Shown here: piece by piece, positions 43,316-64,000 of the stretch
Position numbering within the stretch: position 1 is the stretch's first letter
Layout: every line of letters begins with the position of its first letter
Assembly: GCA_009869945.1 (NCBI GenBank)
Contig: WIXG01000197.1
Span: forward strand, 1 to 64,000
DNA: 64,000 nt
Source: Mesaphorura yosii
Taxonomy: Eukaryota > Arthropoda > Collembola > Poduromorpha > Tullbergiidae
Reading direction: 5' to 3'
Notes under the pieces: generated by a model
The model's database searches: none
Told to the model about the DNA's origin: nothing
Seen by the model: only the letters and a program-made list of their open reading frames with translations
Position numbers and translations under genes: made by a program

Positions 43316-44822
<1,507 letters not shown>

Positions 44823-48662: not shown

Positions 48663-51600
48663 CTAGACTACACCGTGTCTTGCTGTGTCCTTCAACTCGC
48701 CTCCATTTTCGTCGGCTAGGTTCAACTCTCCATTCGGCATTGATTTGAACCCATGTGACTTATCTTTCGACTCAGCCCAATTTGCAAACCTTGACCGTAC
48801 ACTGGCGGCCTTCGCCTGAAATGCACCAAAAGCTCGGCTGAGTGATTTCGGAGAGCTGTCGGAAATATTTCCGTTAGAAATATTTTGCTGCTGCTCATTG
48901 TCGCTGCTACCGGAAGTAAGAACAGTCTTATTTAAGTTCATATTATTCGGTTGTTGCGAGCCAATAACGCTTCGATCAGAACCAGGCCAAGCAATTCCCA
49001 TTTCATGTCGCTGTCTCGCAGTTTCCATCAAGTCTCGTTGCTCGTGCCCAAGAGTTAAGTTTCGCTTCGCCTTGGTTCTCGGTGGCGGAATTGGTGTTAT
49101 TTCGTTATTATCGCTCCAGTACGCTCCTCGTGTAAATAATGCATTTGAATGACTTCCGGCGCCATTATTTCTTTGCTGAGCATCCGAGAAGAAGGTGAAT
49201 GGCGACTTGTCTTGAACTAAAGGTTGGTGTTCACCATCAGCAAGTTCAAATTGATCCGAAATGGATTCAAATGAACTGGTCTTCTTAAAGCTGAAGCACG
49301 ACAAGCCTCCACCATCCGGATGCTGTTCCATGTACTGACTTCGCGATGGAGATTTCAAGGATCGGTGGTATTTCAGATTGTTTGACTTTGCTCCCAAATT
49401 GGAACTGTTCGAAGTGGATGACGCTGGTTGCGGAGTATTCAAGCCCTCGAGTAGGATTTTAATTTCTTCCAATTTATGCTGGAATTGCGACTCATTGAAA
49501 TTTGAAGCTTGGCCTTGCGAGTTTAGGTCGGACGAGAGTGACCTAAACTGATGACCTTCAATGGCGTTGTAATTTCCGCTCATTCCGTTGTAGTGCGAAG
49601 GCGATTCGTACTTGTCCCTGCTGACATACGTGGAGGATATGTGCATCGGACTCGGTTTGTCTTCAGGCCAGATCGGTTCATAATCTCGTCGATTTTTCAC
49701 TGGAGCTCGGTCAGCCGAGCTCATGCTAAATGTCGGTGTCGCATACGACGAGGAATTGGATGAACTGTGTGAAAGTGGAAACGTCTGCGATTGGGTCAAC
49801 GGTTGGACGGGATTTTGGTTCGTCGTTGAGTGGTACTGATGGCCATCGTTCTGAGCTTCTTTCCACACTGCCTGTCTAAAGCTATTTCGCCTTTCTCGAA
49901 TCCTCAAAGGTGCGCGGGCGGAATTCATTTTTGGGGCCGAGGTCAATGACACAGTGTTGATGCTTGAGTAAAGCGGTGAGGCCCGGGACTTGGATATCAT
50001 TAATTTGGCACTGTCAACTCTGTCATCTGACTCTGACGAACTCGACAACGAACCCTTCAGAATAGGTTTAGGCACGATGTTGATATTCATCACTCCATCT
50101 GCACTCCTCAAAGAATGGACTGATTTCTGAGGTCCAGATTCTGGATTCTGGTTTCTGGGGTGCTTGAACACAGAACTACCCTTCATGTGTTGGGAATACA
50201 AGCCATCAATTGATTGACTCGGAGTGCTTGGCAGAGAATTCTTAGGTGTTCCGGTGTTGCTATTTGAACTCTCGGAGGAGTTCCCGACAGATGTTGATAT
50301 GATGGAACTTCTGGAGTCTTTCGTTCTCTGAGACAGCGCAGTCACTCCTGCTGTTGGTGATTCGTCGTAATTCTTCGACATCGGTGAGTAACGGTCGTTA
50401 TTGGTCAGAGAAAGATTTGTGTACGGGTTTGTTCTGGCCACTCTGTCCCGTTCAAATGCGATTCCGTTTAACTGTGAAATACCACTTCGCTTCTCCGATT
50501 CTTGCTTATCTGATGCAGGCATCTGTTGGCCAGAATTAGCGATTTCACCAGTCAGAAAATCCCGAGCTGCAAATAATGGCTTCACTTTTATTACACGTGG
50601 TGTCGACTGTTTTGATTCGTCAGGTTTGGCAGACGGGATTGTGATTGGTGTAAAGAGGTCATTAGCTCTATTCTTGGTCAGATTCTCGTCTGAAAATATT
50701 CTATCCGTCAGCTTCAACTTTTCGTGTTCCCAAACGTGACTTTGGCTCCTCGTCAGGGCGCTACCGTTTTGCTCTCCAGATGAAAGTAGTGCAAACGATC
50801 GCGAATTCACGGTGTCATACTTCTTCTTTCCAGCTTTGTTGGTTCGATTCGATGACCCAGAGCTAGGTTTATTAAAGTCCTCCATTTCTTTGGCGGTGCC
50901 AAGTTTAAGCTTGTTCCCTCCGTACCCGATGTTCACATAGTTTGGAGATAGCTTTCTAACGTCGACCACAGACGGAGGAGAAGGTTTCCTTGGTGGAGAG
51001 TCGGTTCGAGACTGAGGATTCTCCACACTTTGAGTGGCTGTGTGAACTTGGGGTTTCACTGATGACGAAACAACGGACTGTGCCTTCGGAGCTTCTATCT
51101 GCCTCATTGAAACCTTAATAGGATTATGCGAAAGCGAGGAGAAACCACCAGTTGGGGACCCGGATGCTGACAGACGGTCAATACTGTGCTGGTTGTCTTC
51201 TGCCGTGGATTTGCTGTATCCGGTATTAGAGCGAATCGTCGGACTAGGGGGACAGTCAGAAGATTCCATGCTGACTTTCAGCGATTTGCTGCGCTTAATT
51301 GGTAGAGATGGCTTGGCGAGTATTGGTGGTTTCCCGTTACTACTTTTCTTTAACTTTTCTCTGTTTCCGTCGCCAGCCTCAACCTGCACAGTAGCCAAAC
51401 TATCTTTTGTCTTGGTTCCAGAGAGACCTAGACTCGGCGAATTAGATCGCTTATTGCCAAACGAGGACGTAAATGAATAGAATCTTGAAGACGACACATC
51501 GCTTTTGGCACGGCTTAACTGTGTGCTGCCCTTCTTTTCCTTTCCCTCTTTAGGCGAGCGCTCGAAGAATTGTTTTAGTTTGATGATACTTGGTTTGCGA

Positions 51601-53511
51601 AGGAGTCCCGATTTTGAGGAGCTTGTTGTCGGTGGTTCGGGCTTCAAACTGTTATCCTCGACGACGCAGATTTCATCTTCTTCTGCCTGCCGATTAAATT
51701 TACTGTTGTCCTCTGGGCCAGCACGTCCAAGTAACGCGTTCATTGCGGCTTCGTTCCGTTTTAGTCTCACTGAGCTAGAAACTTTGCTGGCGTTATTCAT
51801 TTTTGAGGTGGAGCTCAGCATTGGTGCCGTTGTTGATTCCACGTTGCTCGTTGCGAGACTGTCTTTTCGAGAAAAATCCGTCGTAACACCATTTCGGTCG
51901 GCTCGAAAATCACTGTTGAATTCAATTGTCTCGTACGTTGGGTCATCCAAATTCAGATCTTGCTTTTGTTGAAATGGAAATCCGTTTGGATCCAAATTTG
52001 CGTAAATATGGGCGTCAATTATTTTAAGTTGTTCTTGAAATAACTCCTTCACGGCTCGATGAACTAGAATGTACTGGTCCTTCGTTTGAACCATCGCTAT
52101 TCGTTGACGCCGCATATCCATCACCAACTGAAACAAACTGAAGTCCGCCGTAAGCTTCTATCATAAAAACGAAAGGCATGCGTCAGTTTGGGTATCCATA
52201 AAATGACACATTTTACATAGTCAAGATTTTAAACGCGCACCCCCAGTCTTAGAAGGCCCCACACATAGTCGATGGCACAAATGGTACCAGTTCGTCCACA
52301 ACCAGCAGAACAATGCACCAGGACGGGTAAGGTTTCGGAGGTTTGGCAGTCACGAATCAGCCTCACCATATCAAGCAATGGACTCACTAAACAACCAAGA
52401 CGTAGCAATTAGTTTTGTTAGGCAATCAATATATTCGAATTTAAGGGCATTTCATACCTCGGTTTGGAATTCCGTGATCTGGCCACGCAGAGTAATGAAA
52501 TTGACAGACATTTCTTTCCTCTGCAATGTTGCAAGGCCAAATTAGGTAAATATACACCGATTTCTCAAAATACTCTTGGCAAATGTGAATCACCTTTCTC
52601 TTTCCGGGCGTTGGTGTATCGTATTCTCATTGTTCGAACAAGGAAATCAGGGCAAACATTTCTACACTTCTTCAGCCACACAGTCACATCCCCGAACTGT
52701 TTCTCGATATCATCTTCCTCCACCCAGTACTTTTCACATTTATGCTGTAAAATAAAATGGAAGATGAGTTAAGATGAGTTTCTAGCGTACAAATCAATCA
52801 GGGTTAGTTGAATGACTCGAGTTGTACCTTTCCCGATTCCTGCTCCATGCAAGCCATAACGATTACTTGCACTTCGCACTCGACCACCATCTTCCAGAAG
52901 TCGTTGACGGTGTGCGCAAGCGGGCCCTGGCAGGCAATGTACGCGGATGACCCGCTCGCACCTTTGATAAAGTTGGCATTGATGTAGTCACTTCCAGGGA
53001 CATCGTCCGTGGGCGTGAGAGTAACTCGTGTGTAGTCAACTGAGAATTGAAAAATCGAGTGACCATGAGAGAGCACATTCAAGGGCTATTAACTTAGGAA
53101 AATCGACATGTGACACTTACATGGTAGAATATCCTTATACCGATTCTTCTTTCTGCTCACCGATTTCTCTCCTTCCTTGCACTGATACTCTGGATCGGTC
53201 TTCAAGTTTTCACTGCATATTTTCAGCTCCTGTTGATTTAAATGAACAAAAATTGTACAATGATACGTGCGACAAGTTCAAAACCGGAGGAACGGTTCTG
53301 AGCCTATTCCGGTTTGGGTTTTGGCTATTTGGCTTTGGCTTTTGCTCACCTGGAATTCCTTTTCGTACGCGTCAATTCCACAGCTTCTCTGCGACTCATA
53401 GCTCTCCACCAAATTGAGAAAATTTTGCAAGATGGTTCGAAGTGGCACGATATTATTGTTGGACGAAGATGACACCGATGAGGGAATGTCATCCACACCT
53501 GCAGTCTTCAT
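48663..53511 (-). CDS. PTP-PEST-type non-receptor protein tyrosine phosphatase
   Basis: Seven exons: 53511-53350, 53229-53121, 53039-52828, 52744-52594, 52520-52458, 52386-52241 and 52157-48663. They join to 1445 codons plus stop. The PTP domain occupies about 20-320. It contains the pTyr loop KKNRYKDILPFDYTRV, YINANFIKG, a Q-loop with AMVQTKDQY, the acid loop WPDHG (Asp226) and the signature VHCSAGCGRTG with Cys258 and Arg264. The sequence CGRTGTICAIDYVWGLL is distinctive for the PTPN12/PTPN18/PTPN22 group. After the domain comes a tail of about 1120 Ser/Asn/Pro-rich residues, all in the 3.5 kb last exon, with PIPPPRTKAK (about 1303) as a possible SH3 ligand. Family members dephosphorylate Cas, paxillin and related adhesion proteins in the cytoplasm. 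The tail is about twice the length of that in human PTPN12, and its C-terminal homology box was not recognised. Confidence 0.9.
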
Positions 53512-56158
53512 AGCTGTTCATGTCATTCGCATGGTTAATCAGTGGACAGAATTAAGTGCACTTGAGGTGTTATGTGGAAAATAATGGACGTCAAAGCAAT
53601 TGGCTCAACTTCTATGGTCGTGCGTTACATGTTTCTAAACCAGCAATTAAGAAACTCAGTCACAGTCACAAGTCAGAACAAAATACCTGTTACATATCCT
53701 AATATATCAATTAAAACTCTTTAAACAGGTAGAGTGCATACAAATACGTACAGAAAATAAATGTACACACAACTCCGTAATAATCAGGGCATGTCTATGT
53801 ATAGGCAGGCAGGAGCAGCAGTCTCTACAATGCACAACACAGGGCAACGCATAACAATGCAATTCTACAGGTTCATTATAATTCCACAAGATACAACTCT
53901 TGTGTTTATCTGAAAGGAAATAACGCCCGCAGCCGATTCATACTCAAGTTCTCTCTCTGGTATGCAGTACGAGATGATGATGATTCGCTCCTCGTAATAA
54001 CACAAACATCTTGCACTGCATTTTACGCATTCAGCAGTTGGGTGCGTTGCTGCATTTAAGACCTTTAAGCGTACGTAAGACATGTGCAACAGCAAAAGAT
54101 TAAGTCTGTTGCGTGCCTCACAGCGAGCATGCGATGAAAAACAGAATACTCCAAATTACCATATCAGCCAGTCATTCCACAACTGACCTTTGAACTATGT
54201 CAATCACAGATGCTGTGAACGGGAACATTCGTAGTCTAATTAATGAATGTCAACACTTCATCAATACTGCAGCGATTCAATCAGCGGCTAAGGTGCGCTG
54301 AATGTCCATCGAGATCAGACTATTTCAATACTTCTTCCTCTGTAGAGGAAAAATGTGGGCGGCAACGCAGGGGTTTCTTACAACACTGATCTGTACTAAA
54401 GGGAGTGCAGTGGCAGTGCAACAATGTGAAGCTCACTCACAACAATGCTTGTGCAGCTTGTGCTTATGCATTCGCACTGTCCATGTGTGTAACCTATGCA
54501 AAATGTGCTGATGAATATTTTCTAACAACTATGCGTTACATCGCGCAAGAATGCGGGCCATGAGACAAGGTTGTAAAGTTCAAGCAACGACTCCTCGCTG
54601 TTGCCTTATTGAAGGTCTGTTGACCAAGGTGGTTGTAGGAGATCTCCCACGCGCAACATGAATGGAGCAGATCAATCCACATAACCATCTACAGAAAAAT
54701 TGGCAATTGACACATGTGGATGAGAGACAACTGTCGATAGAAGAGGAGATTATGGCGCTTGATGTGGGATGCTATAATTGCCATCACCTAAATGCCTCCA
54801 TTTCGCAGCACAAGAAAGTTGCGAGTTTGAGAAACAAATGCACTTGAGCCCTGTGATGAGACGATTTTGTGAAATCTACCGATGCCGAATGTCAAAATTT
54901 CAAAATGTCAAAAAGTTAAACGGTCGATAGAAGGCAAATGTGTGAATGAATCTGGGCATGGACAACAGTAAATTTGTCCAAGAACATTTCGCGCTTTCGC
55001 GTCTATGAAGCCTGTTAATGCATTTTACTAGATCAAACTCTAAAGACGCAACTGATGAAATACTGTCATGTCACCTCAGAGCTAATTAGAGTCAGTTGTT
55101 CGGCTAGATTCTGGACAAGGACAACAGTCCCCACGTGACCCGTCCGCGTTCAGCCGAGGCGTAGGACCCAGACGTCTGGACCCACGTAATACGACTTGTG
55201 CGGTGAGACGGAGACACTTTTGGCACTGACCACGTGGTGCCTTCCGAGCGTCTCAGTTTCAATCAATTTGGAGCCTCTCGGTTAATATTTACGGGTGTTG
55301 ACCACACATTTAGCGAACTAGCAGATACAGACATGTAGAATACAGACAGTAGACATTGCATTCTCAAGCATACTGTCAATTGCAGATTTTCAACCTTTCA
55401 ATTCCACCGAATTGAAGCTGCAAGCGGATCAAGACCAAGAAGTCAAGAAGTGAAGCCGCATAAATCAACATAATCATGTAAGTTTGAGCGTCAAGACAGT
55501 CCGGGACAATGGAAAATGCGCACCGCAGGGCTTCGTTCACGGATTGCATGACATCTAGACTTTCTCATGTGGCGTTGCTCGTTGCCTCACTATCAAATGG
55601 CTCCGCACAAATGTGAGGCTGCACGCAGGCAAGAATGTGCGACAACAAGTATAGAAACGGCCAAACATTCGACTCTGATTCTATGGTAGCAATTTTGACA
55701 TGCATGAAGCCTCTGTGCTGTTGTAGTGCTTGTTTGAGCGCAACATTTGCCTCTACTCAACTGTGTTTACTGTATGCGGCTTTAGTCCGAAACCATCACA
55801 AAGTAATGCTCATATGTAAAACAAGAGGAAAGTGTACTATTATGAGACCCGCCACATGAAGCAACAACGACGAGTAAAGGCACAATACGAGAGAAACACA
55901 AAGTTGAACTTCCTTCACTGACCTTTCAAGTCGCTAGTGGTCACCAGACAACGTACAGAGGCAACTTTGAATTAATAAGCCGATAATTGACTCGATCCTC
56001 ATTTTAGTTTTCTTAACTAATTGACATCGACTTTCAGTTTACGTATGACTTTACGTATGTCTACTCCAGAATCGCATTCATTTCGAATCCTTTGTCAGGA
56101 TATCGTTGATAAAGTCTACTTAAGTAGCTACTAATGCACCAGAGGAGAGTGGCAACAA
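53512..56158. other. Divergent intergenic region between PTP-PEST and HCF
   Basis: About 2.6 kb shared by two divergent genes. Near 55474 a GTAAGT donor follows an AG-rich leader-like stretch, which could end a non-coding first exon of HCF. A short upstream ATG at 56132 opens a frame that overlaps the HCF start out of frame. No protein-coding gene was recognised, and the frame at 54662-54847 lacks recognisable content. Confidence 0.45.
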
Positions 56159-59100
56159 ATGAAGATGGAGCCGACGATACCGATGGAACCAATTACGAAA
56201 TTGGAGCGACTTGAAACCGAAGAAGTCGTCCCCAGTGCTTCAATGAAATGGGAACGAATCTACGACACCTCTGGCGCCCAGCCCCGGCCAAGACATGGGC
56301 ACCGCGCCGTAGCTATCAAAGATCTAATGGTCGTGTTTGGAGGAGGAAATGAAGGAATTGTGGACGAACTCCATGTTTATAATACAGGTGACTGATCCGT
56401 GCAAGCAATGTTGAAGTATTTCCTCTCCCATATCCAATTTCTCCGTCATATTTAATTATATGTTTGGAATCTGTAGTCACAAATCAATGGTTCCAGCCGA
56501 CATTGAAAGGTGAGATTCCCCCTGGCTGCGCAGCATTCGGATTCGTGGTCGACGGGACACGAATTATCTGCTTCGGAGGCATGCAAGAGTATGGAAGATA
56601 TACTAATGACCTTTATGAATTACAGGTAAGATAGGTCAAATTACAAGATAATAATTATCACAATGAAATATCAGAGCTCTTTCAATTAAATAAGTGAACA
56701 GTTAACGGAGAAAGCCATTTGAATTTAGGCTTCGCGTTGGGAATGGAAGAAACTCAAGGTGAGAGTGCCGAGAAGTGGACCTGCACCGCTGCCGCGGCTG
56801 GGGCACAGCTTCACGCTTATCAATGGAATTGCGTACATGTTTGCTGGATTAACGAACGCAACAGAAGACCCGAAAGTGCGATACCCGAGATACTTAGCCG
56901 ACCTTTACACACTGGACTTGCGAAATCAAGGATATGCCGCTTGGGATATTCCCACCACCTACGGACCCGCTCCACCACCGAGGGAATCTCACACTGCCGT
57001 TGGCTGGGTCGACAAGGATGGTCAACATCCCAAGCTGATCATATATGGGGGCATGAGTGGATGTCGTTTGGGAGATCTCTGGATCCTAGATATCGGTAAG
57101 TAGTTACAATTACAACGATCTAGCTATGTCTTATTTTTACTGTGTGTGCTTAGCTACAAAGAAAGGAATGAAATTATGAAAGGAGGAGGCCGACACCACT
57201 GTATTTCATGTTAAAACAATTTTCTGTGTTGCTTCGCAGATAACATGGTTTGGATCAAGCCAGAAGTCCGTGGGATTCCTCCACTTCCCCGGTCTCTACA
57301 CAGTGCAACTTTGATTGGAAACAAGATGATAGTGTTTGGAGGATGGGTGCCGCTCGTACTCGATGACCTCAAATTGTCAAGCCATGAAAAAGAATGGAAA
57401 TGCACCAACACGTTGGCCTGCCTTGATGTGGAAACAATGAGCTGGGAGAACATACAATTGGATGCCTCGGATGAAGACATCCCGCGGGCTAGAGCCGGTC
57501 ACTGCGCGGTTGCAATCAATTCAAGAGTTTACATTTGGTCTGGCCGTGACGGTTATCGCAAAGCCTGGAACAATCAGGTAAAATGTCACCAATATATATT
57601 TAAATGCCTAAATGAAATGCATAAGAATGAATGTATCTTTAAAATCTTTTAACCAATAATTCTACTCTGTGTGCAGGTTTGCTGCAAAGACTTGTGGCGA
57701 TTGGAAGTGGAGAAGCCTGGACCACCAGGACGTGTGACGTTGGTTCGTGCAACATGCGGTACTGTGGAACTTACGTGGCCCGTGATGCCAACAGCTACTG
57801 CGTACCTTCTCCAGACGGAAATGTACGAAGGGGCCGTATTACGCGAAACGCCACCGCTAATCAATGTGAAAAAGGAATTGAATAATGCACCTGCACTTGT
57901 CATGTCACCCGACTCAAACGAGCAACTAACGTCAGAGAAGAAATTATCAATACAGCAAAGAAACATTGTCAGCCCTCTTCGACCTCCGACTGCAGCCACT
58001 TCGATGCAACCTAACGCGAGTCCAAAAACCTCATTCAGCGTTGTGCTCAAGGGGAGATCACCAGGGGCACAAATTTTGAGCGCTCCTTCTCAGATTCAGC
58101 AAATGTCAGAAACATCGGGGATAAGAACTTCATTGTCTGCGCCGATTTCAGTCGGAAACATGACAGCCAGACCCGCACTCAGAGCTACGGCCCCAACCTC
58201 AGGCGCTGTTTCTCGAGGTATGTAAACTCATGATTTTTTGAAGTCACTAAGTTTAATTGCGAAGTAAAATCTTACAAACTTGTGTTATCTCTAGTGCGAG
58301 TGGTCCCAGCAGTATCAGCCAGGAACCCTATTCCAGGTACTGCCGTTATGCAGTATCTGAGCTGAACAGCTATTATTACTATTTTGTTTCCATTGTATGC
58401 TTTATGCCATGCTTTCCTTCGCAGGAACTTCCCAACTGCTGTCCGTCTCTCAGGCTCAACTCTCTCAAATTGCACAGATGCCAGGAGTGCGAGTCGTGAC
58501 CAATTTGTTGAGAAACAATCCTCCAGGTACGACTCGAGTACAACAGGTCAATGTTAGTGCTGCGCCCAGTGCGGGATCTAGTGGCCAGTTGAGCGGAATG
58601 CAGGTAAGTCCGTCGCCAGTAGAAACACTGAGAACTGTTCTGGATGAGGTCGCTAAGGCACTAATTTCTCTCTGACGTTGGATATTACTTAGGTTTTAGC
58701 GTCCGCTGCAGCCGCAACCCAAAAAATGGCTACACAAGCACAGCCACAGACCTTGAAACTCGTGACCACCCCAAGTGGACAGCAGGCAATATTAACTCAG
58801 GATGGAAAGGTGTTGCCGACTACAAGCGTCAGTGGAGCACAAACCATGCGCTTGACGAATCCTGGCACCACACTTGTCAGAAGCGGAAGTGCTGGTAGAC
58901 ACATTGTTTTGCAAAATTCAGCTGGACAAAGAATAACCACGCCACTCGGCCAGCAAGTGTTTCAAGTACTGAAATCCACTCCAATGGGCGTGGTAAGTCG
59001 TTAGTGTACAAATTTGTTCAGTTAATGCTAATTAGTGACTAGTATTAGCAGTGAAACGGTCATTAGCACATAGCACGTAATTAGTGGTTGTAGAAGGGCT

Positions 59101-62100
59101 ATCAGATATTATCTTATAGCTACCTAGCGAAAGTAGAGAGCATTAATACGGTTAGTACTGTATCGATTTTGAGGCATGTGTTACCTATAACCAATTGCCC
59201 AGTTTGCCCTCATGTTGCCTTCTAAGTCCACACGAAAGCGAAAACTTTATTTTTTCGATGAGCCTCTACGAAAACAACGCGCTTCACTAACTTCACCTCA
59301 CTCCAAGGTAATAAATAAAGTTATAACGTAAATAACGTTTCGATCAAAAATTCTCCATATAACGTCAACATTTTGTCAACGCTTACAGAATCTCCCGCAA
59401 ATAACGTACAGCCGCGGACTACATCAAGACGTCCTCTCGTTCAAAGAATACTACAATTTAAGGTTGATTTGGTTAACGATTTCCTCTAGAGCGTAACTAA
59501 TAAACTATTTGATATTTCTAAGCCGGAACGCTCAAGCTTACCGCGCAGTGGCTACTCAAGCAGAGCATCAAGACTGCCTAGGATTGCAAGCAGAGAAGTC
59601 ACCAGGATGCAGAGACCTAAAGAAAAACGTGGAAGCAAGAAAGAGACTCCAGCTCCAATGTTGGTGGCTACGCCGCTTCGAGCCGCAAACGTGAATCAAA
59701 TTTCCCTAGTGCCAGTCTCTCGGCCTCAGCTACCTGCGGCGAAAGAAGATTGCCGACCTGGTCCTTCAGACAAATACGACGTGACCAACGACGCAAACGA
59801 ATATTTTTCACGTTTCATTCCTTCAGAGGTAGTAATTCCGACATCAGAAAGAATACAGCCTCGCACCGATCCCATATCACCAACACCAACTGATCGTGGT
59901 CTCCCGGTACTCACTCTCAGATCTTATCCGAGCACACATGCACAACGGCTATCTTCCATCAATCCCATTCAGCTGGCTCCAACTGTTTTCAGCTCGCCAT
60001 TCGTTCCCGGGACTTTCCGTTTCGTTTCTCCCATCAATCGCAATCAACGGCTTCATACTGCTGTGAGAATCACGGAAAACGCTTACAGGGGCTTTCGTCG
60101 AGTACTACATCACCCTCCCTTCAATACCAGGCCATCTACTTCCGGTGAATGCAGTGTCTGGGCACTCGCTCTCAGACCTTTACCGACCGCATCTGAACAA
60201 GAACACCCTCCCATTCCCTCGATTCCACCTGACCAAACACCTGCAGACCAGGAATCTCTCACGGTTCTAACATCGACACCATCTGAGCGCAGTCTTGCAC
60301 AACAGCAACAGAAACGTCTCGTAGGTATTATATTGACACCACCTGATCACAGTCCTGCACTTCGAGAACGAGAACCTCCCACCTCATCGACACCACCTGG
60401 TCAAAGTGTCCCGGCAGCGATAGCAGGTGCTTCTGAGGAAGTCAAAAAGACACCACCACATTCTCTCAGTCCTTTCCCGGAAATACCGCCAAGACCTATC
60501 AGCCCTCTCCCCATTATACCTCAACAACGGGAACCTGATCCCATCAATTCCACTGACCAGTCACCGCCTCAGAATCAGAATAGGCACTCGCCTGTCTTGG
60601 ATGGACACTTAAGCCGACGTCCACTTAAGGCGTCTCCGTCCAAGAATCAACCAAAGAAAGCGCAGCGGAAGCTGACATTGACTGAACCGTTCAGAGGTAG
60701 GTTTAAGCCGCTAGGGGTGTCGGCTCAGACCCCACCCATAAAAGAAGCGGCGGATTCCACCACCAGCGAATCATCATTCTCACATATAAGTGTAAGCCTG
60801 TCGACATGAGTGTACCAAATCTCCACAGAAGCAACAGTATTGTGTGGCTTTTGTTAGCAGTGTCTGAACATGCCATTGCCTACGGATGCAGTAAACCAAA
60901 TACTGGCGGACGCAGCATGGGCCTCCTCGTATGGTAGAGTGAAGTTGCTCCAACAAATGTTGCTGTCACAGGGTGCACCCTCAACCCAGGGTAACGCCTC
61001 CCGTACGTCACAAAGTCATGGTTCGTTCAGAGCTTCCAAGTGGATGTCATTGACCAATAAACACTGCTACTTCTTCTGTAGCAGAGCACTCGGGATTGGT
61101 GCAGTCGTCTCAACCGGGGATCTCCAAAGCTGATTCGCCGGATTCTACCCGTGACCCACAAAATTACATGCCAGCAATCTTCCGGGGCTCCTATCAACGG
61201 CGTCCGATTACAGAGCCGCGCAATGAAACCTCATCTGCACAGGCTGATAGCCCTGCTTCTCGAACCCAGTCCCCGTTCAGTGGAAGTCAGCGGCAGGAGG
61301 CACCAATTGAGATCACAACGGGAGGTAGTTCGGAGCCAATGGACCATGCGGTGCCGCTCTTGTCGGGGCCGCCTTTTCTGATCTCAGGCTACATACCTTA
61401 CTCCGGTGGGATTAGGACGTCATTTTCCAACCATGGACATCAGAATGTGCCACCAATACCAACTGAGCCAGCCATCTTTGAACCTCGACCGTTCACGACC
61501 ACCACACAACCTTACTCCGACGGTATCAGGGCTAGGATCAGTGCGTCATTTTCCAACCGTGGACCAACAAATTTAAATGTGCCACCGACATCGACTGAGC
61601 CAACAATCTTTGAATTACTTGCAGAGCCACCGTCACAGACTCCTGTAAGGTGCACGTTGGCATGTGCTGAAAAGGCTCCCAGCTTTCAATTAACAACGTT
61701 TCATTTCAACCCAATTTTACAAATCTTTTGCATGGCTTGACAAGATGTTACCGATTTGGGTGGCTAATGATGTTAATTCACTTTTTCATCAGCAGATTCC
61801 ACGGACTGGATTACCAGCAGGCACTGTTGTCAGTGGCACCGGAACAATAAATAAACCAATCAGACAACCCACCATTGTAAAGCTTGTTGGATCAGGTAGG
61901 AGTGATATTATTTGCTAAGTGTTCGCAGTTCGTGCTGATACTGAGTTTACATGTTTCAAAAAAATTGCAACAGGTGCATCTGCATCAGGAAATCAGACGT
62001 ACATCACGACTAACCAACAAGGCCAACAGATTATCAGCATCCCCGCTTCGAGTCAGGCGAATCCATGTAAGCTAGCTTTCGATATATTTCATTGTGCAGT

Positions 62101-64000
62101 GCAAATCGAATGGAAGCAATAAATGCTCGTTACTTTTATATAGCTGGTACTGGCACAATTATGGCATCAAAGGCGGGTGGTCAGCCAGGAACACGGCCAG
62201 CCATTGTAATGGCGAGAGGAGCTCCAATCAGAACTTCGACCGGCCAGCAGGTGGTTTACCTGAACCAGGGCGCAGTTCGTGGTGTGACACAGACTGGTGC
62301 GCCAGGTACGAAATCAAAATATTCTCATTTCTCTTCTGAACTTCTTCAGTTGGAAGTTATTATTTATCCTGGAGTATGTATTAAATATAATCCTCCCTAT
62401 TGACCAGGTGCACCGAGAGGACCGGTTCAAGTCATTGTGGTTCCGCCAGGGCAATCTCCGAACAGAGTGGTCGTGCCAAGGAGTGCCGTCCAACAGCAAC
62501 CGGCGAGACAAGGTTTAATATATTACCAAACAGAAGACGGCCGTTACTTGGCGTTGTCACAGAGCGCATCGACCACTAGAATAACTACTTCGATGACCAC
62601 CCCACAACCTCTTCCAGCGATTGTATCGAAGCCCTCGACTACTGAATCTCTTTCCAAGGTATGAACGATATAACGACTCATAAAAATCGATTGAAGTGTG
62701 CTGTGGGTTTGGGCTATGTCGTTGCTGAACAAAGGGGGGCCCATAGGAATAGAATCTTGTCATGATGCAATCTAATGCAAATGAGCCGCAAGCATTGTGG
62801 GTAGGATTAAATTAAATCTTGATAGCAATTCTATTCTTACAGGCTCTGTAATCTAAATTGTATAATTCAATAGGAGTGTCTTTGGAGTACTCAGTAACAA
62901 CGAATCTCTCTCTTTCTCTGATGCTAGAATCCAACTGAAGCAGAACCTGCAGAACAGGAAGTTCCGCCGCCAAAAGAGGATAAACAAAAGGAGAACAATG
63001 TGGCAGTAGACGAAGTGAAGGCAGCTGGTGAAGTGCAGGATCAGGCCGAGTCTTTCGCCGCTGAAAGTGCTGACACAACTATTGCTTCTGCAAGTCTTGA
63101 TTCGTCCACCCAGTCCATGGAAACAGATGAGAGTGACGGGCCGAACGCAGTCGACTCTTTGCAAGATTCGATGCCTGCCAAAGATGAGACTCCACCTGTG
63201 GTTGACCAAGCCGGTGATGCTGTTGATGGAAACGCACCTGTTGCTGCCAACAGTATGTTATAAAACAACGTTTTTATTAATTGCGTTATGTTTATCCTTC
63301 TAATAACATTGGTTCTCTGTTCCCCACAGATGACGTTCCAATTGGCTTGAGAGGTGGAAATATATTCTGCTGGAAGCGTCTGCCTGGGCTTCAGCTTAAA
63401 GGTGGAGGAGCCGACGAAACTGAGAAGAAAGAGGACATGGGCATTACACAAGCACCCGGAGAACACCCGTGTACAGTCTCGGATTCTAAGGATGAAGGGT
63501 CTACGTTAAGCCAAACCGATGATGAAACCGTCACAAAGGAAAAGTCTGCAAATGCAACGCTTGAAGCTGAGCAGCAACTAACGAGCGAATCAGTTCCTAT
63601 GGATGGTGCTGCTGTAGTGGACGTCACCAGAGCCGATGATGGTATGTGAGATGATGAAATGAATCATTAATGCTCGCACTCTTCGGGTAGTGCGAAGAAC
63701 GTAGACTGATTTTACTATACTTGGAATAGGAGCAGAAGGGGGGCTAAATTCGAATGTGGGTGCCAGCGAAAACACCGAGCAAAATGTAGTGACAAATATG
63801 CAACAGGAAGAGATCAAGGTTGAAATGACAGATACCTCAACTGTTGCTGCATTGTCTAGCCAAGACCATACGATACAGCCCATTATCAAACGGGAAAACG
63901 ACGACTCACAAACGGACATTGTCGACTCATTGGCAAGCATGCAAGATTTGAAGGATGACTTTAAGATGAACCCTCTGGACACCCTGGCATCTGCAGCGGT
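56159..64000 (+). CDS. HCFC1: Host cell factor (HCF), 3' end outside the window
   Basis: Core exons: 56159-56387, 56477-56625, 56729-57095, 57240-57577, 57677-58217, 58295-58336, 58425-58603, 58693-58992, then (after the cassette at 59227-61644) 61796-61895, 61974-62066, 62144-62305, 62408-62658, 62928-63252, 63330-63641 and 63730 onward. Residues about 29-380 form the six-bladed kelch propeller: VVFGGG, ICFGGM, YMFAGL, IIYGGM, IVFGGW and YIWSGR. Blocks such as [28 protein letters not shown] and [19 protein letters not shown] are near-identical to HCF-1. The first fibronectin-3 strand region ([16 protein letters not shown]) follows, then Gln/Thr/Pro-rich basic sequence and an acidic region. 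HCF is a nuclear co-regulator that tethers transcription factors to chromatin modifiers and OGT. The C-terminal FN3 pair lies beyond the edge. The third blade has AG instead of GG. Vertebrate HCF cleavage repeats are not seen. Confidence 0.93.
59227..61644 (+). CDS. Phase-matched exon cassette inside HCF (697 codons, Ser/Pro-rich)
   Basis: Five exon-like segments lie between HCF exons 58693-58992 and 61796-61895: 59227-59307, 59412-59462, 59523-60791, 60861-60990 and 61085-61644. Each has AG/GT borders, and the phases run 0-0, 0-0, 0-0, 0-1 and 1-0. The set therefore inserts into the phase-0 HCF junction without shifting the frame or adding a stop. The encoded protein starts with a basic stretch (RKRK, then LRKQR) and is then Ser/Pro/Thr-rich with repeated TPPD/TPPG motifs. 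No known domain was recognised. The acceptor at 59226 follows a strong pyrimidine tract. The second segment has a competing acceptor at 59388 that would break the frame. Alternatives are optional splicing, or a nested gene starting at the ATG at 59212. I favour HCF-internal exons. Confidence 0.6.
61396..61617 (+). repeat. Coding tandem duplication in the HCF cassette
   Basis: Two diverged copies, about 61396-61485 and 61510-61617. They encode [14 protein letters not shown], then [12 protein letters not shown], and PYSDGIR with SASFSNRG, then [12 protein letters not shown]. The second copy has short insertions. Conservation of the reading frame between the copies supports protein coding. Confidence 0.65.

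Follow-up and report, generated by a model that had tools for sequence, protein, structure and literature searches.

A coding-like insert within intron 8 of the HCF gene of the collembolan Mesaphorura yosii, and its possible place in the Kelch-Fn3 linker

Results

An HCF gene with one long intron

We analysed a window of 64,000 nucleotides (nt), positions 1 to 64,000 of contig WIXG01000197.1 from the collembolan Mesaphorura yosii (assembly GCA_009869945.1). A gene for HCF occupies its end, and one intron of that gene holds a chain of open, coding-like blocks, referred to here as the insert. We modelled HCF as 15 exons running from 56159 to the window end. The exon at 57240-57577 alone matches the Pfam family Kelch_HCF (PF13854, E 1.5e-55), the mark of an HCF-type Kelch propeller. 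Beyond the window, in the stretch L011, the last HCF exon continues into an fn3 match (L011:206-1039, E 6.6e-08) that supplies the Fn3 module, and the piece that follows (L011:1088-1276) matched no Pfam family. HCF appears to be single copy: a genome search with exons 1-9 (E up to 1e-5) found no second copy, with or without the insert, and returned one further weak match, on contig C94, with 27% identity to the Kelch part. The gene is laid out in the window as follows.

56159..58992, + strand: HCF exons 1-8, coding for the Kelch propeller and the beginning of the basic region (spliced model, Kelch_HCF match)
56387, 56625, 57095, 57577, 58217, 58336, 58603 and 58992, + strand: ends of exons 1-8 (spliced model)
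58993..61795, + strand: HCF 'intron 8', 2803 nt (exon coordinates of the spliced model)
61796..64000, + strand: HCF exons 9 onward, remaining basic region, then an acidic region by eye (spliced model)

At 2803 nt, intron 8 stands apart: the remaining 13 introns of HCF within the window measure 77 to 269 nt.

Open blocks in the HCF frame

An earlier note on this DNA had proposed that five open segments in intron 8 insert 697 codons into HCF. All five blocks exist (59227-59307, 59412-59462, 59523-60791, 60861-60990 and 61085-61644), each with AG before it and GT after it. Their lengths of 81, 51, 1269, 130 and 560 nt sum to 2,091 nt without an in-frame stop, and the HCF frame is kept across them from the GTG at 58990-58992 to the ATT at 61796. 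Phase and frame thereby fit at both HCF borders, as unrelated blocks would by our own estimate do about once in nine cases. The argument that so large an open exon is improbable by chance also holds, with a 439-codon frame around block 3 that exceeds every one of 1000 Markov-1 sequences matched in length and dinucleotide composition (longest frame 381 codons, mean 134). Absent from that proposal were an in-frame ATG at 59212, 15 nt 5' of block 1 and preceded by an in-frame stop at 59188, and the continuation of the last block's frame to a stop at 61738-61740. With these additions, the insert comprises the following features.

59212..59307, + strand: possible alternative first coding exon, with ATG, upstream in-frame stop and strong donor; block 1 is 59227-59307
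59412..59462, + strand: optional exon (block 2), 51 nt, of coding-like composition
59523..60791, + strand: large predicted coding exon (block 3), 423 codons, from open frame and parse; a stronger in-frame acceptor lies inside
60861..61002, + strand: predicted coding exon (block 4), with donor 61002, or 60990 as in the earlier note, both phase 1
61085..61644, + strand: predicted coding exon (block 5), from the parse; internal duplication, ~61395-61482 against ~61509-61614
61645..61740, + strand: open-frame tail to the stop, with intron-like score; a 3' end only if the insert is an independent gene

To weigh exon models we used a small gene parser of our own. Its training set consisted of the codons, introns and splice sites of HCF alone, so the insert contributed nothing to the yardstick. 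Parse penalties of 8, 12, 14, 18 and 22 were tested, with an explicit comparison of models at 8, 12, 16 and 20. At penalties 12, 14, 18 and 22 the best in-frame filling of intron 8 is 59523-60791 + 60861-61002 + 61085-61644 joined to exon 9, which leaves out blocks 1 and 2 and ends block 4 at 61002 instead of 60990. It scores 258 bits at penalty 14, against 104 for the best of 60 random sequences, and the core of the insert is therefore coding-like by an independent measure. At penalty 8, block 2 is retained and blocks 3 and 5 are split into pieces. The three-block model holds 657 codons and scores 11 to 35 bits above the exact five-block model; across the modelled inserts, 657-706 codons are added. 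The 697-codon proposal thus fares unevenly: its blocks, borders and frame are real, and three of the five (59523-60791, 60861-60990/61002 and 61085-61644) lie far beyond chance, but the exact five-block chain is not the best supported version.

Signs of translation

The repeat structure within the insert bears on whether it is translated. In base composition the insert exons resemble those of HCF, with a G+C content of 0.515, against 0.508 in HCF exons and 0.351 in HCF introns. Successive copies of internal repeats within the same exon are spaced by multiples of three in 13 of 14 cases (the exception, repeat D7, is spaced by 868 nt), although the repeat families overlap and the 14 spacings are not independent events. 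Compared over 29 codons, the copies of the duplication within exon 5 of the insert differ by 8 synonymous changes and equally many non-synonymous ones, with a synonymous rate (dS) of 0.52 and a non-synonymous rate (dN) of 0.13, and by gaps of 4 and 2 whole codons. As many synonymous changes arose in 0.85% of 2000 random placements. A repeat pair of 24 codons in exon 3 is less clear (dN 0.58, dS 0.84). Five pairs were tried in this way; the exon-5 pair alone is both long and clear, and three others, of 4, 5 and 8 codons, are too short.

The 3' end of the insert

Splice sites were scored with matrices that rest on 14 HCF introns, or on 20 acceptors. The donor at 61644, which closes block 5, ranks among the best 3% of GTs and looks real; the acceptor at 61796, itself part of the training set, is in the top 0.2% of AGs. 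The tail after 61644 (31 codons, 93 nt) is intron-like: no coding window of the insert or of HCF scores as low, and 5-35% of intron windows score as high as 61645-61737, depending on the model. Finishing at donor 61644 beats finishing at the stop at 61740 by ~14 bits with each of three matched starts, and neither AATAAA nor ATTAAA occurs within 61645-61795, a search confined to these two hexamers. Because the donor is strong, the tail intron-like and the hexamers missing, and because ending at the stop is so costly, a splice from the chain into HCF exon 9 is most probable, wherever the chain begins. The chain thus appears to be continued, in frame, by the second half of HCF.

Two further features of this region deserve mention in their own right. 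NAGNAG acceptors at 61793-61796 (HCF exon 9) and 61082-61085 (exon 5 of the insert) each permit one extra codon. The next AATAAA begins at 61846, in a AATAAATAAA stretch at window positions 61846-61855 inside HCF exon 9, and is a possible premature or nested polyadenylation signal.

The encoded peptide and the search for relatives

The predicted peptide is rich in proline (14.6%), serine (12.6%) and arginine (8.6%) and has a net charge of +26; block 1 encodes two short basic clusters. Its Uversky charge-hydropathy score of 0.421, against a boundary of 0.427, places it marginally on the disordered side. Since Ser-Pro and Thr-Pro sites are not enriched over shuffled sequences (23 against 20.8, P 0.32), a special role in phosphorylation is unsupported.

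No Pfam family matched the whole 733-residue translation (E up to 1) or exons 1, 3, 4 and 5 taken singly (E up to 10), and the sequences of the PDB gave no match to the insert at E up to 1. By eye, the spacing of G to GA at window positions 60906-60977, in exon 4 of the insert, resembles one ankyrin repeat, for which Pfam gave no match. Within the 93 Mb genome, exon 3 as DNA and the 733-residue translation (E up to 1) match the window only, and this single copy excludes a multicopy transposon or repeat family. Among viral contigs, exons 3 and 5 gave 15 and 2 pattern matches, of which 0 were confirmed, and exon 3 gave 78 pattern matches in prokaryote genomes, again with 0 confirmed. The insert is perhaps specific to this lineage, a suggestion that rests on missing relatives in collections holding no other animal genome. 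By gene content the genome looks like that of an arthropod, with 66 matches to Chitin_bind_4, a family of arthropod cuticle proteins, and four weak matches to PBP_GOBP; COX1 was not found, nor were insect odorant receptors, in a search in which no control gave a match either. A narrow literature search found no HCF insert of such a kind.

Neighbouring genes

Just 3' of HCF lies an isocitrate dehydrogenase-type gene on the - strand, with Iso_dh matches (2.3e-10 and 7e-09) at L011 3222-4362. Upstream in the window is a protein tyrosine phosphatase gene (48663-53085, - strand), with a Y_phosphatase match of 3.4e-24 at 52804-53085; in its 1164-residue open frame, the last part of the catalytic domain (2.3e-04) is followed by a long Ser-rich stretch. 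A Thiolase exon occupies 43736-44509 on the + strand (Thiolase_N, 9.8e-61), and a 257-codon open frame opposite it is probably no more than a mirror of the coding strand.

Discussion

The reading we favour, with a confidence of about one half, is that the blocks of intron 8 are coding exons of HCF, spliced between exons 8 and 9 and lengthening the linker between Kelch propeller and Fn3 module. Three coding exons, and up to five, would then lie within the intron and would be entered from exon 8, in all or some transcripts. The linker would gain ~650-700 Pro/Ser/Arg-rich and probably flexible residues, and such a module may act as a regulatory tether, offering docking sites and basic patches, rather than as a folded enzyme or domain. 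The earlier note had likewise set the insert in the HCF frame between the Kelch and C-terminal modules. This placement is also the best-scoring reading, with an exit at 61644, and its first two exons are weak.

Several observations weigh against this reading, the first being that none of the acceptors that could open the insert is clearly good. The acceptor of block 1, at 59227, is weaker than ~60% of the AGs of the window, and those at 59412 and 59523 are of middling strength, each scoring lower than any of the 20 reference acceptors. Both 59227 and 59523 have an A at -3, a feature of 0 of 14 HCF acceptors; a wider intron set, drawn from L011, L012, the window and 20 additional stretches, yielded 6 distinct acceptors in each of two attempts, and as 1 of the 6 has the same A each time, verdicts on the acceptors are soft. 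The strongest acceptor that fits the frame, 59730 (top 0.9% of AGs), falls within the large exon, 69 codons from its start, and was not chosen by the parse. The internal donors at 60791 and 60990 are weak, and the ATG at 59212 with its upstream stop stands directly before block 1. The peptide is also unlike HCF in composition (Pro 14.6 vs 8.0%, Arg 8.6 vs 4.8%, Val 4.0 vs 8.0%). Finally, a direct splice from 58992 to 61796 is equally in frame, so that inclusion of the insert is possible and nothing requires it.

Two candidate supports for the acceptors were set aside. A pyrimidine run before 59227, seen by eye, is not borne out by the matrix, and a better-scoring in-frame acceptor at 59490 was rejected, as 59490-59522 scores as intron. 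Block 2 pairs a coding-like score with a weak donor, and block 1 has at 59307 a strong donor, among the best 1.4% of GTs. With this donor, the ATG and no good acceptor, block 1 looks like a first coding exon. Overall, the insert is weakest at its 5' end and firmer at its 3' end.

That resemblance counts towards the first alternative, which we regard as doubtful. Here a promoter inside intron 8 would give a protein that starts at ATG 59212 (or 59607), passes through 61644 into exon 9 and amounts to a shorter, HCF-C-like form with its own N-terminus, and full-length HCF would skip the block. The ATG, the in-frame stop at 59188, the strong donor at 59307 and the lack of a good upstream acceptor would all be expected of such a start. 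The ATG itself sits in a pyrimidine run, however, in a context that is poor by eye (C at -3), and an in-frame ATG within five codons would by our own estimate occur by chance in about 1 of 13 cases. Nor do the parse scores distinguish entry from exon 8 from a start inside the intron, whether at 59212 or at 59607. Over the four penalties of the comparison, the leading full-length model and the leading internal-start model lie 2 to 6.4 bits apart, and their order switches with the penalty; the internal start is never more than 6.4 bits away at penalties 8, 12, 16 and 20, and scores highest at 8. It is conceivable, if quite improbable, that the HCF-C half is produced directly from a start within intron 8 and carries a new Pro/Ser-rich module at its tip. 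In this lineage, promoter choice and splicing would then yield the separate N and C products that come from proteolysis by Taspase 1 in flies and by OGT in vertebrates.

We consider it unlikely that the insert is instead an independent gene, nested on the same strand, that runs from ATG 59212 to the stop at 61738-61740, encodes ~733-737 residues and is unrelated to HCF. The frame from 59212 to 61740 is intact from ATG to stop (733 codons with the internal sites of the earlier note), a composition foreign to HCF would suit a separate gene, and the stretch from 61846 inside HCF exon 9 could serve its polyadenylation. Yet its last portion, 61645-61737, scores as intron, and the model falls ~14 bits below the same model finishing at donor 61644. 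A free ATG-to-stop parse, in which ATG and stop were given no credit, falls short of the HCF-joined parse by 16-30 bits at each of the five penalties. The two hexamers are missing from 61645-61795, so that a 3' end of its own inside the intron was not found, and the gaps that would part it from the HCF exons measure just 219 nt on its 5' side and 55 nt on its 3' side. If a nested gene it were, it would be a 700-residue orphan in a very tight same-strand arrangement.

Very improbable, finally, is a coding-looking relic, left from some earlier gene or from a duplicated block of exons, that has lost translation: several weak splice sites would fit it, but 657-737 codons uninterrupted by stops or frame breaks, HCF-like codon bias, dN below dS in the exon-5 duplicate and in-frame repeat spacings all speak against decay.

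Comparison with known HCF systems

HCF connects transcription factors with chromatin modifiers, and different animals have placed their cutting sites in the middle part of the protein. The gene described here resembles HCF/HCF-1 in its Kelch_HCF domain, in a basic and then an acidic region (by eye), in the Fn3 module downstream and in the lack of a second copy in the search with exons 1-9. It differs in the 657-706 extra codons of unlike composition that would fall in the basic region and that have no match in the collections searched. Nested intronic genes offer a second point of comparison: an ATG-to-stop frame fits within the host intron here as it does in them, but the tail is intron-like and 61645-61795 holds no hexamer.

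Taspase 1 cleaves at the consensus Q-[FILV]-D-G-x-D-D. Five [FILVM]DG sites occur in the three forward frames of 56001-64000 and L011 502-4000, and none of them fits this consensus by eye, splice-spanning sites being outside the count. According to PMC3234250, Drosophila dHCF is made up of Kelch, basic, acidic and Fn3 parts and a nuclear localization signal, and both PMC3234250 and PMC4840301 assign a Taspase 1 site to it. The collembolan gene shares with dHCF, likewise an arthropod HCF, the build of Kelch, basic, acidic and Fn3 parts.

In vertebrates, the PRO repeats of HCF-1 sit between the Kelch and Fn3 parts. PMC4840301 describes these repeats as derived from single large exons and without related cellular sequence. 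The insert of M. yosii has a similar large-exon look and a similar address, though its sequence is unrelated; we noticed no PRO-type repeat in it, by inspection and not by a profile search for that repeat. Should the insert prove to be part of HCF, the gene would provide a test of whether the HCF linker tolerates, or uses, new regulatory sequence, and would represent, beside the vertebrate PRO repeats, a second case of a big exon arising in the centre of HCF, now in an arthropod.

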